Of a DNA stretch of 50,673 nucleotides, positions 26,476-35,566 are shown in pieces; positions within the stretch are counted from its first letter, which is position 1; every line of letters starts with the position of its first letter. The position numbers and the translations under genes were made by a program. This stretch comes from Ignavibacteria bacterium (lineage in GTDB: Bacteria > Bacteroidota > Ignavibacteria > Kapaibacteriales > UBA2268). The DNA is taken from assembly GCA_026417135.1 (NCBI GenBank), contig JAOADV010000015.1:1-50673 (forward strand). Direction: 5' to 3'. Below the pieces are notes generated by a model. That model was not told the DNA's origin, searched no databases, and worked only from the letters and a program-made list of their open reading frames with translations.

Positions 26476-28206
26476 CTAATTAATTGGGAGGAGTATAGTA
26501 AATTTTGTTCCTCGACCTTCTTCACTTTCGACTTGAATGTTGCCGTCGTGCAATAAGATTATATGCTTTACAATCGAAAGACCTAAACCCGAACCACCAC
26601 TTTTTCGCGAACGAGATTTATCGACGACATAAAATCTTTCAAATATTCTATCAAGATGCTGGCGTGGTATACCTATACCTTCATCTTGAAACTCGATTTT
26701 TACTGTTTCTTCGTCGTCTCTTTTTAAATTTATTTTTATTGTTCCGTTTTCCGAATATTTTATCGCATTGTCAATTAAATTAATAAACACTTGTTCCATT
26801 CGAAAGGCATCTGCCTTTATAGTTGGAAAATCTTGTTCGACCGAGACCTCGATTTTAAGGTTTTTCTCCTCTAATCTGTGTTTAAATGTTGGGATGACTT
26901 GTTCCGTAATTTCGACAAGATTTACATCGGAAATAAACAATTTCGAGGAAACATCTTCGAGCGACATCAAATGTAGAAGGTCGTCGACGATATGAATTAT
27001 TCTTTCTGTATTCTTTTTGATTGTCTCGACATAACGGATTTGTTCGCCTTGGACTTCTTCTTCCAATGTTTCTAAATATCCTTTTATTGCAGTAAGTGGG
27101 GTTCGCAGTTCGTGCGATACATTGGCTACAAGGTCTCTTTTTATATTCTCAATCCTTTTCAAATTTGTTATATCGTAAACAAGATGGATGATTTCTGTTG
27201 AATTTTTCAAATGCTTAACAGTCGATAAATAAATTTTATCTTCAAGTTGGATTTCTTTTGAATTATCTTTGTTGGATTTTAAAGCTTGCTCTATTTGTTG
27301 GACAAGGGACGCTTCTTTTGCGATTTGTTTGAGTTTATTGTTTTTTTCATTCTTAAGCAAAAGTGTTCTATAATTCAAATTAGCAAAAACAAGATTACAA
27401 TCTTTGTTTATTATTGCGATAGCTTGGTCTATCAAGTTTATTACATTGTGCATAAAATCTCTTTGTTCTTTTATGGATTCAAGGCTTTTTTTCATTTCTT
27501 CGACCATTGTATTGAAGTTTTTCTTCAATGTAGCCAATTCGGAATCGCCTCTTTCATCGAGGGAAACAGTGAAATCACCTTCAGCGACTTTTTTCGAAGC
27601 TTCGATGACTTCGTGAATCGGTTTAGTTAATCTTTTGGAAAGTAAATAAGAAATTAAGATAATACCACCAAACATTCCAAGAAAAGTCAAGATTATCTTT
27701 TGTTGAAGGTCTGCAAAAAGGAAATTAAAGCTCTCCCTTTCTGCGCTAGTTCGCACAAAGCCCAAAAAGTTATCCTTGAAGTTAACTTTTTTTGCAGCAT
27801 AAATACATTCTGCCTTCATTGTCGTGCTATAGCGGAAAGCAGTTCCGTGGCCAGTTCTTTTAGCTTCGACTATTTCGGGTCGCAAGCTGTGGTTTTCCAT
27901 TTTACTTGCATCTTCGCGGGTATCGAAAAGAACTCGACCAGTACTATCAATTACAGTAATTCTAACATTCAAAAGAGAATCTACTTTTAAAAGAAAATCT
28001 GTAGTTGGTTTATTATCGATTATTGAAAGCTCACGATTTTCTAAAAGTCTAGTTTCGATTAAGTTATTCAACTTATTTAATTCATTCGTTTGATATTGAA
28101 GGAAAGTCTTCTTGAAAGTAGTAAAATTTTGATAGATTATCAATAGAGAATATACAAGGACTATTGAAATAATGGAAGCAAAAACAACGGATGAATATCT
28201 TTTCAT
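26476..28206 (-). CDS. PhoR-like sensor histidine kinase
   Basis: A 576-residue membrane kinase. A helix at about 8-28 precedes a periplasmic sensor domain (about 30-170), and a second helix follows (about 172-192). A HAMP linker (about 193-245) and a PAS-like domain (about 255-345, IDQAIAIINKDCNLVFANLN) come next. HisKA has phosphoacceptor H365 (VSHELRTPL), and the HATPase domain has N box NLIDNAIKYS and G boxes DEGIGIP and GGSGLGLSIVKHI. The order matches PhoR/WalK-type kinases, which often sense phosphate or envelope state; the signal here is unknown. Its ATG overlaps the stop of the regulator by 1 nt (TAATG), so the pair is coupled. Confidence 0.93.
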   Translation of the reverse strand: MKRYSSVVFASIISIVLVYSLLIIYQNFTTFKKTFLQYQTNELNKLNNLIETRLLENRELSIIDNKPTTDFLLKVDSLLNVRITVIDSTGRVLFDTREDASKMENHSLRPEIVEAKRTGHGTAFRYSTTMKAECIYAAKKVNFKDNFLGFVRTSAERESFNFLFADLQQKIILTFLGMFGGIILISYLLSKRLTKPIHEVIEASKKVAEGDFTVSLDERGDSELATLKKNFNTMVEEMKKSLESIKEQRDFMHNVINLIDQAIAIINKDCNLVFANLNYRTLLLKNEKNNKLKQIAKEASLVQQIEQALKSNKDNSKEIQLEDKIYLSTVKHLKNSTEIIHLVYDITNLKRIENIKRDLVANVSHELRTPLTAIKGYLETLEEEVQGEQIRYVETIKKNTERIIHIVDDLLHLMSLEDVSSKLFISDVNLVEITEQVIPTFKHRLEEKNLKIEVSVEQDFPTIKADAFRMEQVFINLIDNAIKYSENGTIKINLKRDDEETVKIEFQDEGIGIPRQHLDRIFERFYVVDKSRSRKSGGSGLGLSIVKHIILLHDGNIQVESEEGRGTKFTILLPIN

Positions 28207-28907
28207 TAAGTTTCGTTAATTTTATATCCTACGCCTCTTACATTTTTGATGAATTTTCCAGCTGGGCCTAGTTTTTCGCGTAAGTTTTTTATGTGAACAT
28301 CAACTGTTCGGTCTAAAACACCTTTTTCGCTCGAACCCAACTCGTTTAAGATTGTTTCTCGAGAAAAGACCCAGCCTTTTCTTTTTAACAGAAGTGTGAG
28401 AATTTTAAATTCGCTCGGAGTAAGTTCGATTTTTCGATTTTCAACATATACGTCAAATCTTTTTAAATCTACGCGTAAGATGTTGCCGAAAGTAATGTAT
28501 TGCGAGCTATCTTCTTTTTTCTCCCGACGAAGAACGGTTTTGACACGCGCGACTAATTCTCTTGGCGAGAATGGTTTAGTGACATAATCGTCGGCACCTA
28601 ACTCCAAGCCCAAAACTTTCTCCATTTCGTCGCCACGAGCAGTTAAAATAATAATAGGTATTTGCTTGAATGTCTCATGATTTTTTAAGTATTTACAGAC
28701 CTCCATTCCATCTGCATCTGGTAGCATTAAATCGAGAAGGATGAGGTCGGGCAACTCGGAATTTAAGTAACGATAGAAGCTTGAAACATCTGAAAATTCA
28801 CGAACTTCGAAATTATGCTTACGAAGATTCATCCCTACAAGCTCTAAAATATCTTCTTCGTCGTCAACAATTGCTATTACAGCTTCGTTGAGGGGAGATT
28901 GTCTCAT
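28206..28907 (-). CDS. OmpR/PhoB-family response regulator
   Basis: A 233-residue two-domain regulator. The receiver domain (about 8-125) has acidic pair D15/D16, phosphoacceptor D59 in LILLDLMLPDADG and the conserved lysine in TKPFSPREL. The C-terminal winged helix (about 140-230, LTPSEFKILTLLLKRKGWVFSRE and VDVHIKNLREKLG ending VRGVGYKI) binds DNA. It is the first gene of the pair with the kinase that follows, overlapping it by 1 nt. The protein order and the PhoB-like receiver support a PhoB role, but targets are not known. A TAATTTTG box is 28 nt upstream. Confidence 0.94.
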   Translation of the reverse strand: MRQSPLNEAVIAIVDDEEDILELVGMNLRKHNFEVREFSDVSSFYRYLNSELPDLILLDLMLPDADGMEVCKYLKNHETFKQIPIIILTARGDEMEKVLGLELGADDYVTKPFSPRELVARVKTVLRREKKEDSSQYITFGNILRVDLKRFDVYVENRKIELTPSEFKILTLLLKRKGWVFSRETILNELGSSEKGVLDRTVDVHIKNLREKLGPAGKFIKNVRGVGYKINET

Positions 28908-28935
28908 TTTATTTTCTTTGAATGTTTAAGAATTT

Positions 28936-28943
28936 CAAAATTA
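28936..28943 (-). promoter_or_regulatory. Candidate -7 box TAATTTTG for the two-component pair
   Basis: A minus-strand TAATTTTG ending 28 nt before ATG 28907. The 227-bp spacer to the MazG-like gene holds no other recognised element apart from the terminator of the preceding unit. Confidence 0.45.
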
Positions 28944-29144
28944 ACCGAAAATTGTTAATTTTTTCTTAAGACAACACTTCATAAGTTATTTATTTTTAAA
29001 AATATATTAAAATTATCTAATTCTTTATTTCAAAAATCAACTTTATAAATGTTAATTGGAAAATGCTTGCTTAGCCTTGTCCAAAGAAATTTCAATATGG
29101 TGGAATTTATTTATTTCTTTTGGTGTAGTTGTTTGGGTTGAATA

Positions 29145-29171
29145 AAAATAGTGGAATATCACCGCTATTTT
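29145..29171 (-). terminator. Intrinsic terminator of the surface protein-regulator-MazG unit
   Basis: On the minus strand AAAATAGCGG pairs with CCACTATTTT (10-bp stem with one G-U pair, 7-nt loop), followed by UUUUUAUU. The stem begins within the TAA stop codon region of the MazG-like gene. The geometry is that of a Rho-independent terminator. Confidence 0.7.
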
Positions 29172-29523
29172 AATATGCTTGACCTTGGGCTTCCAACTCT
29201 AATCTTTTTTCTTCAATCCATTTTAGTTTTTTCAAAAGTGCGTTTGTTAAGTTCAAATTTCTTGCATTTACGTAATTGAGTAAAGCAATGAACACGTCGG
29301 CGGATTCATCTTCGAGAACTTCTAATGGAATTTTTTTCCCTTTCCAAATTTTTTTCTCACTGTTGGCAAGTTCGCCGGCTTCCCCGTTCAATTCAAGGCA
29401 GAAAAACTCGGGTGTTCTAGCTGGGAAAAATTGAATTTGATATGTTTGGAAATGTTTCTGAATCTCTGGCAAGCAGGTAGAAATTGAAGTCAAAAGTTTA
29501 TCGAAAATTTCATTGTTGTTCAT
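29170..29523 (-). CDS. MazG-like nucleotide pyrophosphohydrolase-fold protein
   Basis: A 117-residue all-helical protein. The pattern ELNGEAGELAN (E..E..E) and EDESADVFIALLNYVNARN (ExxD) resembles the Mg2+-binding EExxE...ExxD motif of MazG/dCTPase-type NTP pyrophosphohydrolases. The C-terminal KKLKWIEEKR is also common in short MazG-like proteins. These usually hydrolyse canonical or damaged NTPs to NMP and pyrophosphate; the substrate here is not predictable. Its ATG 29523 lies inside the end of the response regulator gene (14-nt overlap), so the two are co-translated. The terminator starts at its stop codon. Confidence 0.75.
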   Translation of the reverse strand: MNNNEIFDKLLTSISTCLPEIQKHFQTYQIQFFPARTPEFFCLELNGEAGELANSEKKIWKGKKIPLEVLEDESADVFIALLNYVNARNLNLTNALLKKLKWIEEKRLELEAQGQAY

Positions 29524-30214
29524 TTTCTTGATTTATTTGTGAAGTTTCTCGTATTCTGTAACCAACGCCCCGAATGCTTTGTATTAAAGGTGGAAGCGAA
29601 GGGTCGAACTCTAATTTTTCCCGCAAGCGTTTGATATAAACATCGATTATGTTCGATTCGGGGTCGAAAGAATGTTTCCAGACGTGTTGAAGAATATTGC
29701 TACGGCTAACAATTCTATTCTTATTGCGTAATAGACATTCCAGAATTGCATATTCTTTGGTAGTCAACTCTATTTCCTTACCGCCACGGTAGGCTAAATG
29801 AGAAACTGTGTCTAAAACAAGGTCTTGGCATTTCAGTTTCGTCGTTTTTTCGGTGCTACTTCTTCGAAGAATAGAACGAAGTCTTGCAGCAAGTTCTTCG
29901 AAACTGAATGGCTTTGGAAGATAATCGTCGGCTCCAAGGTCGAGTCCAAGGACACGGTCCTCCGTTGCTCCACGCGCAGTTAGCATCATCACGGGAGTAG
30001 AAATACCAGCGTTGCGAAGTTCTTGGAGAACTTTAAACCCGTCGCGTCCTGGTAGCATCACATCTAAAAGAATTGCATCGTATTCGTTGTTCATTGCCAT
30101 TTCTAAGCCCTTTTCACCATCGTTCGCAACATCGACAATATATCTTTCTTCTTCCAATCCGTGTTTGATAAAATTTGCTACCTTCTTCTCGTCTTCCACA
30201 ACAAGAATTCTCAT
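29510..30214 (-). CDS. OmpR-family response regulator without adjacent kinase
   Basis: 234 residues from ATG 30214 (MRILVVEDEKKVANF). A longer in-frame reading to 30355 exists, but its extra residues overlap the surface protein gene and do not resemble the family. The receiver has D51 in AILLDVMLPGRDG and PKPFSFEEL. The winged helix has LTTKEYAILECLLRNKNRIVSR and IIDVYIKRLREKL, ending IRGVGYRIRE, a CusR/OmpR-like pattern. No histidine kinase gene adjoins it; the nearest kinase belongs to the other pair. It lies 23 nt after the surface protein gene and overlaps the MazG-like gene, so it appears to be the middle gene of a three-gene unit. Confidence 0.92.
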   Translation of the reverse strand: MRILVVEDEKKVANFIKHGLEEERYIVDVANDGEKGLEMAMNNEYDAILLDVMLPGRDGFKVLQELRNAGISTPVMMLTARGATEDRVLGLDLGADDYLPKPFSFEELAARLRSILRRSSTEKTTKLKCQDLVLDTVSHLAYRGGKEIELTTKEYAILECLLRNKNRIVSRSNILQHVWKHSFDPESNIIDVYIKRLREKLEFDPSLPPLIQSIRGVGYRIRETSQINQENEQQ

Positions 30215-30237
30215 TTTAGAGACCCGTCTAATAAAGT

Positions 30238-33156
30238 TTACTTTACGAAAATAGGAAAAATTTCTTGATTTCCATCGGAAAGGAGGAGAAAAACATAATA
30301 AAGCCCCGGTGCAACGATAGAACCATCCAACTTTTTCCCGTCCCACCGTTCGCAATAGTAGGTATTTCCAAATCGAAATGAAGAATTTAGTATTTCGTAA
30401 ACGATTCTATTACCTTGGTCTAGAATCCTCATAGTTACATTAGCATCTTTTTCGAGAATGTAACTAATTTCAGTTGATTCTACCGTTGGATTAAATGGAT
30501 TTGGAGCAATTGAATTGATATACTTTGGCTTTGTGATGTAAAGTAGAGTATCGGCAGAATAACAACCATTCGCACAGCAAAATCGCAAGATTAGCTGTTC
30601 TGGATGGGTTCTTTTCTGTTCAAACTTAAATTCCCCTGTTGAAGTGGGTATTTTTTTTAATTGATAAAATTTTTGGTCTTTATTTTCGAACAAAAGAACA
30701 TTTAATGTGTCGCAGTCGAATGGTAAATCAACCCATCTAAAAATTTTATGACAACATATTGATTTCGAGCTGTCGTAAGTAACAAGAAACTTTTTAGGAT
30801 AAACGTCAATAGGGAAAATGTCGGTAGTATCTTTAAAAAAGCCTTTGAAGATAACTGCTCGAATACTTACATAACCTTTGACATCTTTCGACGAACAATC
30901 GAAAATAGGTAGGCAAGGCAAGGAAAAATTGAATGTGTTTGTTAGTCCCGAATTACTGACGGAACCTAAGATGTTCCAAGTTTTATTATCAATTGAATAT
31001 TCAATACGAGCAGTATCTACACAAGAGGTCGAGAAACTGATAGAAACATCATCGAAAAAGTTGTGCCGATTAGACGTATGCCAAAACAGCGAAGGCTTTG
31101 TAAATCGTAGGACTGCAGTAGAGTCGAAAATTTCGGTAGTATCGGTTGAATTCTCGAGATAAATAATTCCTTCTTTATTTTCATAATTTGCATTTATGAA
31201 AATTTTTACAGTTGTGTGTTTTTGGTGCAAAGTAATATTTTTTGCAATAAGGAATGATTTTGCATATTCATAATTACCTTGTGAAATGGGAACGAATCTC
31301 AAATTGATTTGCCTTTCTGTTTTAGCTTTCGACTCAATTTTTATTAATAGAGTATCCCCAATGCAGAATATAAAAGGAGTGCCTTCGGAATATTTTGGCT
31401 CGTTAACTTCTATCATTTTTGGCAATGGATTTCCAATAAGATAAGTAAAGTTGTTAGTTGTAACAATTAAATCGTTCTTTGCATCGCCTTCTAAGTCGCA
31501 CACTAAAACTCTGTGAATCGTCTCGTTTCGGAATTCATAGAACCAAAGCGTGTCGAAAGGTATTCCCATTTTAAACTCAAAGCTGTTATAGTCTCGCATT
31601 TGGAGAATTAATAGGCGGGAGCCATCTGCCAGTATAAGTTCTTCCTTTTTGTTTTCAGCCCCATCCAAATCGTTGACGCAGGCAATCCAGCCATTAATTC
31701 TAAAAGAGCAAATTGTATCGAAAGGAAATAGGAAGTAATTTGGTGGACTTGGTTTTGGGACAGGGTTTCCAGCATTGTACCTAAGTATGAACAATCTGTT
31801 GTTGGGAACTGTTCTGTAGATTGAACTCATCGTTACGATAATTTCGTTCCCTGGATTATTTGGAAAATATGGGAGAAACGAGTTTGTCTGGATACCATCG
31901 ACATTTCCGACTGCAATGCTCCATTGGTGATTTTCGCTGCCAACAGAAAAAGAAGGTGAATAGTAATCGTTGGGGAAGGTTATTGCATTTCCTTGATAGT
32001 CGAATAAGTGTAGTCGGGGACTTCCGTACGAAGAGTCTATGCCTTTGTATTCTTCGGCAACAAGTATATATAAAGAATCGCGAGTAGAGGAATTATTTAA
32101 AGTAACAAAAAAAGGTCGAATTTGGGCTCGTTTGCCACGAGTGTCTAAAATCGAGTTTAACTCCAAAGGAGGGAAAGTTTGTCGAATTTGATTGTTGATT
32201 AGTGAATACGATAAGAGGTACGATTTTAATGGATTTGTTCTATTTAGCGAAATATAGTTAGGCACGTTAACATTTTGTTTAAGAGATGCGTAATTGGGGA
32301 TGAGGATTTGGAGATTTCCTCCAACTATATTTATGGATGGTTGAGTAAACGATACTTCCGGACCAAGAGTAACTCTGAAATTTTGGTCGTCGGTTATCTC
32401 GGGTAGAGGGAACGTATTAACCAGACGATTTGATGGAAAAACGGAAAAGCCACGAAAGAAAGGGGGTTTTGAAGGGTCGGAAGTAGAGATATTCGGATTG
32501 ATAATATTTACTGAAGCATAAGTGAGAAAGTTTCCAGCGAATCTTCTTCCAAGGAATATTTTCATCGAGGCAAAAGTATTAGGTTTATACTCGCGCATAT
32601 CGACAACGACACGTTTAATCAAAGAAATTGTATCAGCGGTTTCATCATAGCTGGCTAAATAAGTATAAGCAAGTGTGTCCTTTTGGTTTTCAAATTCAAC
32701 AGTTTCAAGTCCTAAGCTAACGACTGAACTTGGAGTTGGATAGTAAATTGGGGAAAGTGTATCGAAAAGTATAGAAACATTTTTTAAAAAGGGAATTGGA
32801 TAAGAATTTGATTTTCGCGTCTGGCCACGCCCATCGACAACAATAATTTTTCCACCCGTAACAGCAACAATTTCGTTTGGAGCAAAAGGTAAGGATTCGT
32901 CTATTTTAGGGTCATTTATAATATTTCCTACTAATGTTTGTGCTTGACCGCTGATTGAATTTGTTCTCCATTTGATTAAAAATTTTCCTATGTCTTGTTC
33001 GGCAGAGGGTACTTGCTGGCGAAATGTTCCTTGTGGATTTCCATTCGGGAATAACCATGTAGCTGGATTTGCCAAATAGATTTGCGAAAAAATAATAGAA
33101 TTGGAAATGAAGAATAATAGCCAAAATGTGAGAAATTTTAATCTGTTTTTTTGCAT
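30238..33156 (-). CDS. Large secreted surface protein with type IX sorting domain
   Basis: A 972-residue protein with a signal peptide (1-25, ending IFSQ). A long N-terminal half (about 30-600) may be a FG-GAP/beta-propeller-like fold judging by repeated short segments such as GNVDGIQTN, VNDLDGAENKKEELILADG and CDLEGDAKNDLIVTT. Beta-sandwich-like segments follow (about 610-880), including paired cysteines such as CNLC- and CC-type spacings. The last 85 residues (SIAPNPFNPTVE ... GLYYVFLLLSDG) form a type A C-terminal sorting domain for type IX secretion. No catalytic motif is recognised. It is the first gene of the unit with the orphan regulator and the MazG-like gene. Confidence 0.75.
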   Translation of the reverse strand: MQKNRLKFLTFWLLFFISNSIIFSQIYLANPATWLFPNGNPQGTFRQQVPSAEQDIGKFLIKWRTNSISGQAQTLVGNIINDPKIDESLPFAPNEIVAVTGGKIIVVDGRGQTRKSNSYPIPFLKNVSILFDTLSPIYYPTPSSVVSLGLETVEFENQKDTLAYTYLASYDETADTISLIKRVVVDMREYKPNTFASMKIFLGRRFAGNFLTYASVNIINPNISTSDPSKPPFFRGFSVFPSNRLVNTFPLPEITDDQNFRVTLGPEVSFTQPSINIVGGNLQILIPNYASLKQNVNVPNYISLNRTNPLKSYLLSYSLINNQIRQTFPPLELNSILDTRGKRAQIRPFFVTLNNSSTRDSLYILVAEEYKGIDSSYGSPRLHLFDYQGNAITFPNDYYSPSFSVGSENHQWSIAVGNVDGIQTNSFLPYFPNNPGNEIIVTMSSIYRTVPNNRLFILRYNAGNPVPKPSPPNYFLFPFDTICSFRINGWIACVNDLDGAENKKEELILADGSRLLILQMRDYNSFEFKMGIPFDTLWFYEFRNETIHRVLVCDLEGDAKNDLIVTTNNFTYLIGNPLPKMIEVNEPKYSEGTPFIFCIGDTLLIKIESKAKTERQINLRFVPISQGNYEYAKSFLIAKNITLHQKHTTVKIFINANYENKEGIIYLENSTDTTEIFDSTAVLRFTKPSLFWHTSNRHNFFDDVSISFSTSCVDTARIEYSIDNKTWNILGSVSNSGLTNTFNFSLPCLPIFDCSSKDVKGYVSIRAVIFKGFFKDTTDIFPIDVYPKKFLVTYDSSKSICCHKIFRWVDLPFDCDTLNVLLFENKDQKFYQLKKIPTSTGEFKFEQKRTHPEQLILRFCCANGCYSADTLLYITKPKYINSIAPNPFNPTVESTEISYILEKDANVTMRILDQGNRIVYEILNSSFRFGNTYYCERWDGKKLDGSIVAPGLYYVFLLLSDGNQEIFPIFVK

Positions 33157-33191
33157 TATATCATTATCTGTTTAAAAATTTACATTACCCG

Positions 33192-33199
33192 CAAAATTA
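33192..33199 (-). promoter_or_regulatory. Candidate -7 box TAATTTTG for the surface protein unit
   Basis: A minus-strand TAATTTTG ending 35 nt before ATG 33156, in the divergent 211-bp spacer shared with hppA. Confidence 0.45.
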
Positions 33200-33313
33200 A
33201 TTTAAAATTTGGTAATTATCATATTTTATACCAAAACAAGTTTATTTTAGCAAAGAGTTAGAATGAATTTAAGTTGTTAATGAAATTTAAGTTAAAGGAA
33301 TATTACAATTTCG

Positions 33314-33321
33314 TAATTTTG
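33314..33321 (+). promoter_or_regulatory. Candidate -7 box TAATTTTG for hppA
   Basis: A plus-strand TAATTTTG ending 46 nt before ATG 33368. It is oriented opposite to the minus-strand box at 33192-33199 in the same spacer. Confidence 0.45.
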
Positions 33322-33367
33322 CATTTTTTTGAAAATACTTCTTTTGTAAAATATTTCAAGGTTTTTT

Positions 33368-35566
33368 ATGGAAACTTCATTACTATATCTTGTTCCAGCA
33401 TTTGGTGTTTTAGGGATTCTTTATACTATCTGGAAGACAATATGGATTCAGAAGCAGGATCCCGGAACAGAGAAGATGCAACGCATAATGAGTTACGTCC
33501 AGCAAGGTGCAATGGCATTTTTAAAGACCGAGTACAAAGTTATTTCAATTTTTGTAGTGATTGTTGCAATTCTGCTTGCAATTCAAGGAGCTTCGGTCGA
33601 ACAATCTTCGCCGTTACTTGCCCTTTCGTACATCGTTGGAGCTTTTTGCTCTGGTCTTGCTGGTTGGATAGGTATGAGAATTGCCACAAAATCGAATGCT
33701 CGCACAACTAACGCTGCAAGGCGAAGTCTTAATGATGCACTTCGTGTAGCATTTGCTGGCGGTTCTGTTATGGGAATGGCTGTTGTCGGGATTGGGGTCA
33801 CGGGTTTAAGCACTGTTTTCCTTATTTATTTGAACCTTTTTGGCTACGAAACTCAATCTGGCTTATTGACAGTTATAAATGTTATCACTGGTTTCTCCTT
33901 CGGTGCATCGACGATTGCATTGTTTTCCAGAGTCGGTGGCGGAATTTACACCAAAAGTGCTGACGTCGGTGCAGATTTAGTGGGTAAAGTCGAAGCTGGT
34001 ATTCCCGAAGACCACCCGCTTAATCCAGCTACCATTGCAGATAATGTCGGAGACAATGTAGGAGATGTTGCAGGTATGGGTGCCGACTTGTTTGAATCGT
34101 ATATTGGAGCAATTGTCAGCACAATGGTTTTGGGGTCAGTATTTTACAATGTTCCCGAATTCCAAGATACAGTTTTCAAAGGTATGTCGGCGGTTATGTT
34201 GCCACTATTTCTTGCTGGCGTAGGTATCATTGTTTCGATTTTCGGAACCTTTTTTGTAAGCGTAAAAGAAGGGGGAAATCCACAAAAAGGTTTAAACATT
34301 GGAACATTTGTCGCAAACTTTGTAATGTTGATAGCGTCTTACTTTGTTATAAATTGGTTGTTGCCAGAATCTTTTGTTTATAACGACCCACTCTATAACA
34401 GAGAATTTACGATAACTTCCAACGGTGTGTTTTTTGCAACAATTTTTGGGCTTGTTGCTGGCGTTGGAATTGGTTTGATTACCGAATATTTCACTGGATT
34501 GGGTAAACCACCCGTGCGAAAGGTTGCCGAAAATAGTCTTACGGGTTCTGCAACAAATATTATTACTGGAATATCCGTAGGTATGCTATCTACTGCTATT
34601 CCAGTTCTATTGATTGCTTTTGCAATCATAGGAGCTTTTGAATTTGCGGGTTTGTACGGTATTGCTATTTCAGCAGTTGGAATGCTTGCAACAACTGGTA
34701 TACAACTTTCTGTCGATGCCTATGGTCCTATCGCTGACAATTCTGGTGGAATTGCCGAAATGTCTGAATTGCCACCCGAAGTTAGGGGAAGAACCGATAA
34801 ACTCGATGCGGTGGGGAATTCAACTGCTGCTATTGGAAAGGGGTTTGCAATTGGGTCTGCTGCTTTGACTGCGCTGGCTTTGTTTGGAGCTTTTATGACT
34901 GCAGCAAATCTTCATTCAATTGATATTTCGAAAGCAAATGTTATTGCTGGGCTTTTTATTGGAGCTCTTCTTCCTTTTGTTTTTTCAGCGTTGGCTTTGG
35001 GAGCTGTTGGCAGAGCTGCTATGTTTATGGTAAAAGAAGTTAGACGACAATTTACCGAAATTCCTGCCCTTCGAATGGCTTTGGAAGTAATGAAACGACT
35101 TGGGGACAAACCAAAGTCCGAATGGCCCAAGGAAGATTTAGAGACTTTTGAAGCTGCGGATGGCAAGGCAGAATATGAGAAGTGTGTGGCAATAGCTACA
35201 AAAGGGGCTATTCGGCAAATGGTTATTCCAAGCCTGCTCGCAATAGTAACTCCGATTGCTGTGGCATTTTTACCTTTCTTTGGTAAAGAAGCCTTAGGAG
35301 GTATGCTTGCTGGTGTTACTGCCAGTGGTGTCCTATTAGCAATTTTCCAAGCTAATGCAGGTGGAGCTTGGGATAACGCAAAGAAAATGTTCGAAGAAGG
35401 TGTTGTTATCGATGGTGTTCGGTATTATAAAAAATCCGACCCCCATAAGTCTGCTGTAGTTGGCGACACCGTTGGCGACCCATTTAAGGATACAGCTGGT
35501 CCGTCTCTTAATATTCTTATTAAGTTAATTTCGATAGTTTCCTTGATTCTTGCTGTTTTACTATAA
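33368..35566 (+). CDS. hppA: K+-dependent membrane ion-translocating pyrophosphatase
   Basis: A 732-residue, roughly sixteen-helix pump that hydrolyses pyrophosphate to move H+ and/or Na+ across the membrane. Signature loops are [13 protein letters not shown] (starting D199), [21 protein letters not shown] (about 225-245) and the C-terminal [17 protein letters not shown]. In [10 protein letters not shown] the residues A487 and G490 occupy the positions that are Lys and Thr in K+-independent enzymes, so a K+-dependent enzyme is predicted. Whether the ion is Na+ or H+ cannot be read safely. Length is typical. It is monocistronic, with a TAATTTTG box upstream and a probable terminator downstream. 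Confidence 0.97.

Follow-up and report, generated by a model that had tools for sequence, protein, structure and literature searches.

Introduction

Several described systems resemble parts of the locus reported here; each is cited from portions of the respective paper. PorX and PorY of Porphyromonas gingivalis are a cognate regulator and kinase pair, tied to type IX export, whose genes lie apart on the chromosome (PMC4800418). PorA of P. gingivalis is a surface protein with a type IX C-terminal domain, proposed to relay a surface signal to PorXY (PMC7712824). RprY, also of P. gingivalis, is a regulator without a linked kinase, and its relatives keep rprX and rprY together (PMC3646045). The remFG-sprCDBF operon of Flavobacterium psychrophilum, which encodes a type IX surface adhesin, has a promoter that mutagenesis confirmed to be of the sigma-54 type (PMC9723704), and sigma-54 has been linked to the bacterial exterior (PMC3162934). 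Reported here is a three-gene unit of an Ignavibacteria bacterium, found in a 50,673 nucleotide (nt) stretch of contig JAOADV010000015.1, the whole of which is called the window. The unit encodes a probable type IX surface protein (SURF), an OmpR-family response regulator (RR) and a MazG-like predicted enzyme. It is conserved in the order Kapabacteria, and the most fitting reading of the regulator, by homology, is as one partner of a divorced two-component system, with a candidate partner kinase encoded on another contig.

Conservation of the gene order

The unit consists of three genes, all on the minus strand:

30238 to 33156, minus strand: surface protein (SURF), 972 amino acids (aa), from the gene call and the sequence
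29510 to 30214, minus strand: OmpR-family response regulator (RR), 234 aa, CopR/CzcR/SilR-like, without an adjacent partner kinase
29170 to 29523, minus strand: MazG-like all-alpha NTP pyrophosphohydrolase (predicted), 117 aa

The 234 aa of the regulator are counted from the conserved start MRILVVEDE. SURF and RR are separated by 23 nt, and RR overlaps the MazG-like gene by 14 nt; gene calls and sequence confirm both distances, which an earlier note on this DNA had given in describing the three genes as tightly linked.

The source genome (G000, 2.24 Mb) is in 63 contigs, of which the window is number 6. Each protein of the unit was used as a query against 60 genomes, consisting of G000 and 59 relatives from the same order, taken to be the Kapabacteria, and a sample of 148 genomes from the phylum included 24 of the same class outside the order. 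There are also 66 named loci, overlapping the 60-genome set, that carry the surface protein, 54 of them together with the regulator.

Of the 60 genomes, 47 have the surface protein, 57 the regulator and 44 the MazG-like gene. SURF and RR are adjacent in 40 of the 47 genomes with both, in 8 families, and RR and the MazG-like gene are adjacent in 23 of 44 genomes, from 6 families, with some missing adjacencies due to contig breaks. The full triple is found together in 14 of the 60. The gene order thus extends far beyond close relatives; conservation in very close relatives alone would, by the earlier note, have refuted its reading. Among 43 long SURF loci, RR follows directly downstream in 31 genomes, but no family of upstream neighbours is seen in more than 6; the gene upstream of SURF differs in most relatives and other neighbours are barely conserved. 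Relatives of the MazG-like protein (E-value of 1e-12 or better) are found in 11 of the 148 phylum genomes, all inside the order, and SURF (1e-20 or better) in five, namely four of the order and the same-class genome G180. No description of such a unit was found in the literature searched, in agreement with the view that it is not a known operon type. These sequence comparisons show a real and conserved three-gene unit that is, within the reach of the searches, order-specific.

The three neighbours might share no function; chance or a common promoter would then have preserved an old order, in which the MazG-like gene is a passenger. Families f2 and f7 fit this, as SURF is missing from 7 of 7 genomes while RR is kept in 7 of 7 and an adjacent MazG-like gene in 6 of 7, and so does the separation of the MazG-like gene from the regulator in 21 of 44 genomes, some of it by contig breaks. 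However, SURF and RR have stayed together while the flanking genes were reshuffled and SURF diverged to about 31–56% identity with the window protein among long matches. Mere neighbourhood without a shared function appears doubtful, though it is to be taken seriously.

A separate observation concerns four f2 genomes (G036:C2, G045:C1, G052:C3 and G059:C11), in which a SprA translocon gene is found about 16–18 kb from the regulator.

The regulator and the unlinked kinase

RR displays a receiver domain (PF00072, 102.5 bits) and a winged-helix domain (PF00486, 98.9 bits), both above cut-offs, and its phospho-acceptor D51 and K101 are invariant in 32 sequences. It carries no PglZ domain; the PorX relative of the genome is another gene (G000:C61:13169-14716).

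In same-class genomes outside the order, 12 of 24 have a relative of the regulator at an E-value of 1e-70 or better, and a histidine kinase gene lies directly downstream in 12 of 12 loci examined (one per genome, 12 of 13 regulator matches, a second match in G096 being left out). Inside the order, a profile search of 61 loci with the regulator showed a kinase within 1.5 kb in the window alone and none at the other 60. The description of RR as a regulator without a kinase is thus true locally, but a candidate partner is encoded elsewhere in 42 of the 60 genomes.

This candidate was found with the kinase of G180, the nearest outgroup, as query. Its best match in the window genome is G000:C61:99309-100880 (5.5e-104), followed by the window kinase at 26476-28206 (2.8e-40). 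The 42 genomes with a relative located elsewhere include two partial matches counted as present (G010 and G040, 251 and 243 bits); these two and G054 are outside the fetched set, which holds 39 of the 42 kinase loci. No receiver open reading frame was found by profile within 1 kb of the unlinked kinase at any of the 39 loci, 6 of which reach a contig end at less than 1 kb on one side. No gene beside the kinase is common across the order, the largest neighbour families occurring in 6 genomes. In G004 kinase and regulator share a contig, 4.7 kb apart, and in G029 the kinase is present without the regulator.

The best NCBIfam model of RR is CopR-type and that of the C61 kinase is CopS-type, which is independent support for the pairing, and the outgroup kinase passes the CopS cut-off with 304.9 bits. 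An identity of the C61 kinase with PorY was rejected, the PorY model giving 129 bits against a cut-off of 350 and CopS fitting far better. Quick trees were made from cleaned sets, that of the regulator omitting two far controls and three doubtful rows (G006, G007 and G031, at 43–50% identity and on long branches; these are counted as present in the tally and excluded where stated). The regulators of the order fall on one side of a branch with a support of 89, which is not conclusive, and the kinases on one side of a branch with a support of 98. In both trees the linked gene of G180 is the nearest outsider, and paralogues from the order that are still linked group by themselves.

A different partner had been suggested in the earlier note, namely the kinase encoded downstream of the unit:

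28206 to 28907, minus strand: PhoB-like regulator, neighbour outside the unit, from gene calls, domains and best models
26476 to 28206, minus strand: PhoR/PnpS-like histidine kinase, neighbour outside the unit, from gene calls, domains and best models

The kinase lies 1.3 kb downstream of RR on the same strand, and this position is what speaks for phosphorylation of RR by it. However, its gene overlaps that of the PhoB-like regulator by 1 nt, the best models of the two are PnpS/PhoR and PhoB, and there is the lack of a nearby kinase at the other 60 loci. By their models and arrangement these genes are a separate PhoB/PhoR-like pair, and it is very improbable that this kinase serves the regulator of the unit.

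Apart from this, G012 (L340, L348) and G018 (L347, L350) each have a further CopRS-like regulator, a paralogue, and a kinase similar to the first on separate contigs; in other genomes, e.g. G022 (L338) and G008 (L341), the two are linked.

Loss of the kinase

RR might also be a true orphan without a dedicated kinase, or receive its signal from several kinases, in which case the CopS-like kinase would be a relic with another role. In the family of the window, 16 of the 33 genomes with a regulator match lack the kinase, several of them more than 95% complete, and the DNA-binding helix is well conserved in most kinase-less genomes. Against this, no other receiver reading frame was found beside the unlinked kinase at the 39 loci, and the kinase-less genomes of the family carry more divergent regulators (p = 0.033 with the three doubtful rows excluded). 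Measured from outside references, both the receiver (p = 0.0017) and the DNA-binding domain (p = 0.0009) are more divergent in kinase-less genomes, and PorX displays no such shift (p = 0.19), although all these p-values ignore relatedness. The labels of kinase presence need only 5 changes on the surface-protein tree and give 2 independent pairs on well-supported branches; with so few changes and pairs the divergence after kinase loss is a hint and not a passed test. A regulator without a dedicated kinase, or with several, appears unlikely.

A relaxation confined to the receiver was seen relative to the consensus of kinase-bearing rows. It was dropped and is not claimed, because outside references show both domains diverging and independent losses are too few.

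Sequences upstream and downstream of the unit

Three short features accompany the genes:

33219 to 33234, minus strand: degenerate -24/-12 (sigma-54-like) element upstream of SURF, GG-N10-GA
33192 to 33199, minus strand: TAATTTTG box, not conserved
29145 to 29171, minus strand: weak hairpin with a U-rich tail overlapping the stop codon of the MazG-like gene, a possible terminator

Word counts show that the regions upstream of SURF contain an excess of TTTGGTATAA-like words, extending to TTTTGGTATAATTTATGCT. The extended word has the form GG-N10-GC, the spacing of sigma-54 promoters, for which the consensus TGGCACN5-7TTGCT is given in the portion cited of PMC12316311. In the family of the window, 27 of the 31 genomes with SURF could be counted, G014, G016, G025 and G026 being excluded with less than 150 nt upstream; 473 upstream regions of other genes from the loci of the same family served for comparison. 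The pattern TTGGYAY-N6-TGC is found exactly in 10 of 27 SURF upstream regions vs 3 of 473 others (Fisher 8.9e-12), and with up to one mismatch in 23 of 27 vs 14 of 473 (Fisher 3.5e-26), p-values that are too small since the template was derived from the same upstream regions later counted and relatedness was ignored. Of the 12 matches to a stricter pattern across 806 kb, 10 precede SURF; five shuffles gave 0–3. The copy in the window has one mismatch, the C of the GC being lost; other genera of the family have GG-N10-GC. In all, the window has 13 sites with at most one mismatch vs 7.0 expected. The RpoN DNA-binding domain is found in 60 of 60 genomes.

One of the three other genes with an exact element upstream, L073:9223-10722 of G018, has a product with a signal-peptide-like start.

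The earlier note had proposed an upstream box shared by the three genes. The TAATTTTG box is indeed present, but it is not conserved, and the sigma-54-like element, which is conserved in the family of the window, explains the upstream region better. The window holds 16 copies of TAATTTTG vs 10.2 expected, and 76 of TANNTTTG vs 68.8 expected. TAATTTTG occurs upstream in 4 of 43 surface-protein loci and in none of the four other members of the genus. With counts this near to background and so few loci it was rejected as a shared promoter.

The intrinsic terminator that had been placed at the last stop codon is a possible one. A hairpin with a U-rich tail does overlap the stop, but it is weak (−6.5 kcal/mol, z = −2.3, with 5 of 200 shuffles equally good) and a consensus terminator scan lists none at 29145-29171. 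A search of Rfam gave no match at gathering scores across 28100-33600.

The surface protein

SURF displays an N-terminal hydrophobic helix (residues 2–20), a propeller-like region (about 55–580), an immunoglobulin (Ig)-like region (about 590–870) and a C-terminal FlgD/T9SS-like domain (about 880–972). In the window protein this last domain is weak and under the cut-offs, with E-values of 0.081 for FlgD_ig and 0.084 for CHU_C. In 30 aligned members of the family, at an E-value of 0.01 or better, FG-GAP repeats are found in 28, FlgD_ig in 16, CHU_C in 3 and the TIGR04183 sorting domain in 2. The type IX C-terminal domain, on which the claimed export depends, is clearer across the family than in the window protein itself. 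The machinery is present in the order, with SprA/Sov in 60 of 60 genomes, PorX encoded separately in 57 and a match to the PorZ model in 60 of 60, above cut-off in 47. From its domains SURF is probably type IX-exported and surface-located. An identity with PorZ was ruled out, since PorZ is encoded separately (G000:C24:1380-3617); two of the 30 SURF members match the PorZ model weakly.

The predicted structure of SURF has a mean pLDDT (predicted local distance difference test) of 86.7 and a pTM (predicted template modeling score) of 0.70. Residues of about 55–580 match propellers, and the matches to integrin alpha chains extend along more of the protein. The matches include 8bbf (Z = 20.4, root mean square deviation, rmsd, 3.2, 331 aligned residues), chain B of 8bvq, a BAM complex (Z = 19.5, rmsd 3.0, 316 aligned) and integrin alpha chains (Z about 14–15), while Foldseek with the whole model gave mostly Ig-type chains at low TM-scores. 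These matches of a predicted model show a fold and no function.

Two unusual relatives were seen. The surface protein L136:5943-7259 of G037 matches the family at its two ends only, as if the propeller middle were lost. In G180, outside the order, a distant SURF relative (L245:3845-9127) is divergent from PorX; the gene that follows and overlaps it encodes a protein of 138 aa in which a type IX sorting domain is found. This arrangement suggests an older tie to type IX export.

The MazG-like protein

The MazG-like protein of the window shows no Pfam or NCBIfam match at an E-value of 1 or better and no match to PF03819 at 10 or better. The other 35 of 36 aligned members of its family match PF03819 at an E-value of 10 or better, the best at 1.8e-5. 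The pattern ExxE ... ExxD is the metal-binding pattern of MazG-type pyrophosphohydrolases, and E48-x2-E51-x21-E73-x2-D76, a putative metal site, is invariant in 36 sequences. The predicted structure (pLDDT 96.8) shows a MazG/dCTPase fold. It matches YpjD (2gta; Z = 9.8, rmsd 2.7, 85 aligned) and 5ie9 (Z = 9.7, rmsd 2.8, 92 aligned), although Z values near 9.8 can be common among helical bundles. No Foldseek match reaches an E-value of 0.001, but the best rows are of the MazG/dCTPase family, in line with a sequence-profile match to 2gta at 1.6e-5. By predicted fold and site the protein is an all-alpha pyrophosphohydrolase of predicted activity, and the designation as a MazG-like hydrolase is upheld by fold and site pattern.

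Divergent from the unit, at 33368-35566, lies a gene whose product we take to be a membrane pyrophosphatase. It borders a gene for an enzyme of a type that releases pyrophosphate.

A proposed course of events

The anatomy of the unit, its conserved order, the pairing of regulator and kinase by homology and the promoter-like element can be drawn together. The reading we favour, which seems to us reasonably probable though far from assured, is that of an order-specific operon of the Kapabacteria, with half of a divorced two-component system at its core that was rewired into a surface-protein unit. An ancestor would have carried a CopR/CopS-type regulator and kinase side by side, linkage presumably being the earlier state. 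In the order, the regulator would then have come to lie between an integrin-like propeller protein exported by type IX and a MazG-type enzyme, leaving the kinase orphaned elsewhere. In the family of the window a sigma-54-type promoter, acting through some enhancer-binding activator, may drive the three genes as one transcript. The surface protein would be exported by Sec and then by the type IX system to the cell surface. The unlinked membrane kinase may sense a condition of the envelope and phosphorylate RR on D51, and the phosphorylated regulator would control envelope genes. The MazG-like enzyme would be co-expressed for nucleotide clean-up.

A number of points weigh against this operon reading. 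The regulator and the C61 kinase both stay below the cut-offs of their best models, RR with 261.2 bits vs 279.2 for the CopR-type and the kinase with 255.6 bits vs 292.55 for the CopS-type. The trees are quick ones; the groups are less clean with the far controls included, and these controls split the regulators of the order. The losses in the family of the window show that some genomes do without the kinase. In 21 of 44 genomes the MazG-like gene and RR are not neighbours, partly through contig breaks, and in two of them about 1 kb lies between the two genes. The promoter statistics carry the circularity stated with them. The sigma-54-like element, allowing one mismatch, is found in 0 of 16 SURF upstream regions outside the family, including that of G180, and it is imperfect in the genus of the window, where three other members differ at the GC and the fourth is without a good copy. 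A search for an operator common to the upstream regions of SURF, the kinase and RR gave none; direct-repeat totals exceeded those of shuffles (101 vs 75, 68 vs 47 and 8 vs 5), without a shared word.

Beyond the favoured operon reading, a surface-status circuit can be imagined, in which the integrin-like type IX protein is the signal for the unlinked CopS-like kinase, RR, as a product of the same operon, reports its arrival at the surface and a sigma-54 activator times the circuit. This is speculative and we give it little credence. If true, it would be an independently evolved counterpart of the loop from PorA to PorXY, with a metal-type two-component system as its origin.

Comparison with known systems

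An OmpR-type regulator, what is probably a type IX surface protein and putative sigma-54-type control come together in the unit, a combination of which the searches found no description for this branch of the phylum. The comparison names a testable partner for an apparently orphaned regulator, and linked outgroups, a split order and kinase-less lineages form a natural series for parted two-component genes.

The remFG-sprCDBF operon serves a type IX surface adhesin, and its sigma-54 promoter may be compared with the sigma-54-like element before SURF in the family of the window, but the portion cited (PMC9723704) mentions neither a regulator nor a MazG-like gene as part of it. RprY differs in that the rprX kinases of its relatives are, in the portion cited, weakly homologous to P. 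gingivalis kinases, whereas a clear kinase relative is found here, and in that the regulator of the unit has a fixed new operon. PorA is a surface protein with a type IX C-terminal domain, such as SURF probably has, and with a proposed tie to two-component regulation; it has a FimH-like domain, however, where SURF has a propeller, and the portion cited has nothing that places PorA beside a regulator gene.

CopR/CopS (CusRS, CzcRS) provide the best NCBIfam models for RR and the unlinked kinase, and the outgroup pairs show the usual order of regulator and kinase. In the Kapabacteria, in contrast, the pair is split, the regulator is joined to the SURF and MazG-like genes, and both proteins are just under the model cut-offs. 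The unit stands next to the well-studied case of PorX/PorY, where regulator and kinase genes also lie apart, as is proposed here for RR and the C61 kinase. The two cases differ, as PorX carries a PglZ domain (seen on the PorX of G180) and the regulator of the unit is OmpR-type; PorX moreover has its own gene in nearly all genomes of the order, and the C61 kinase fits CopS far above PorY.

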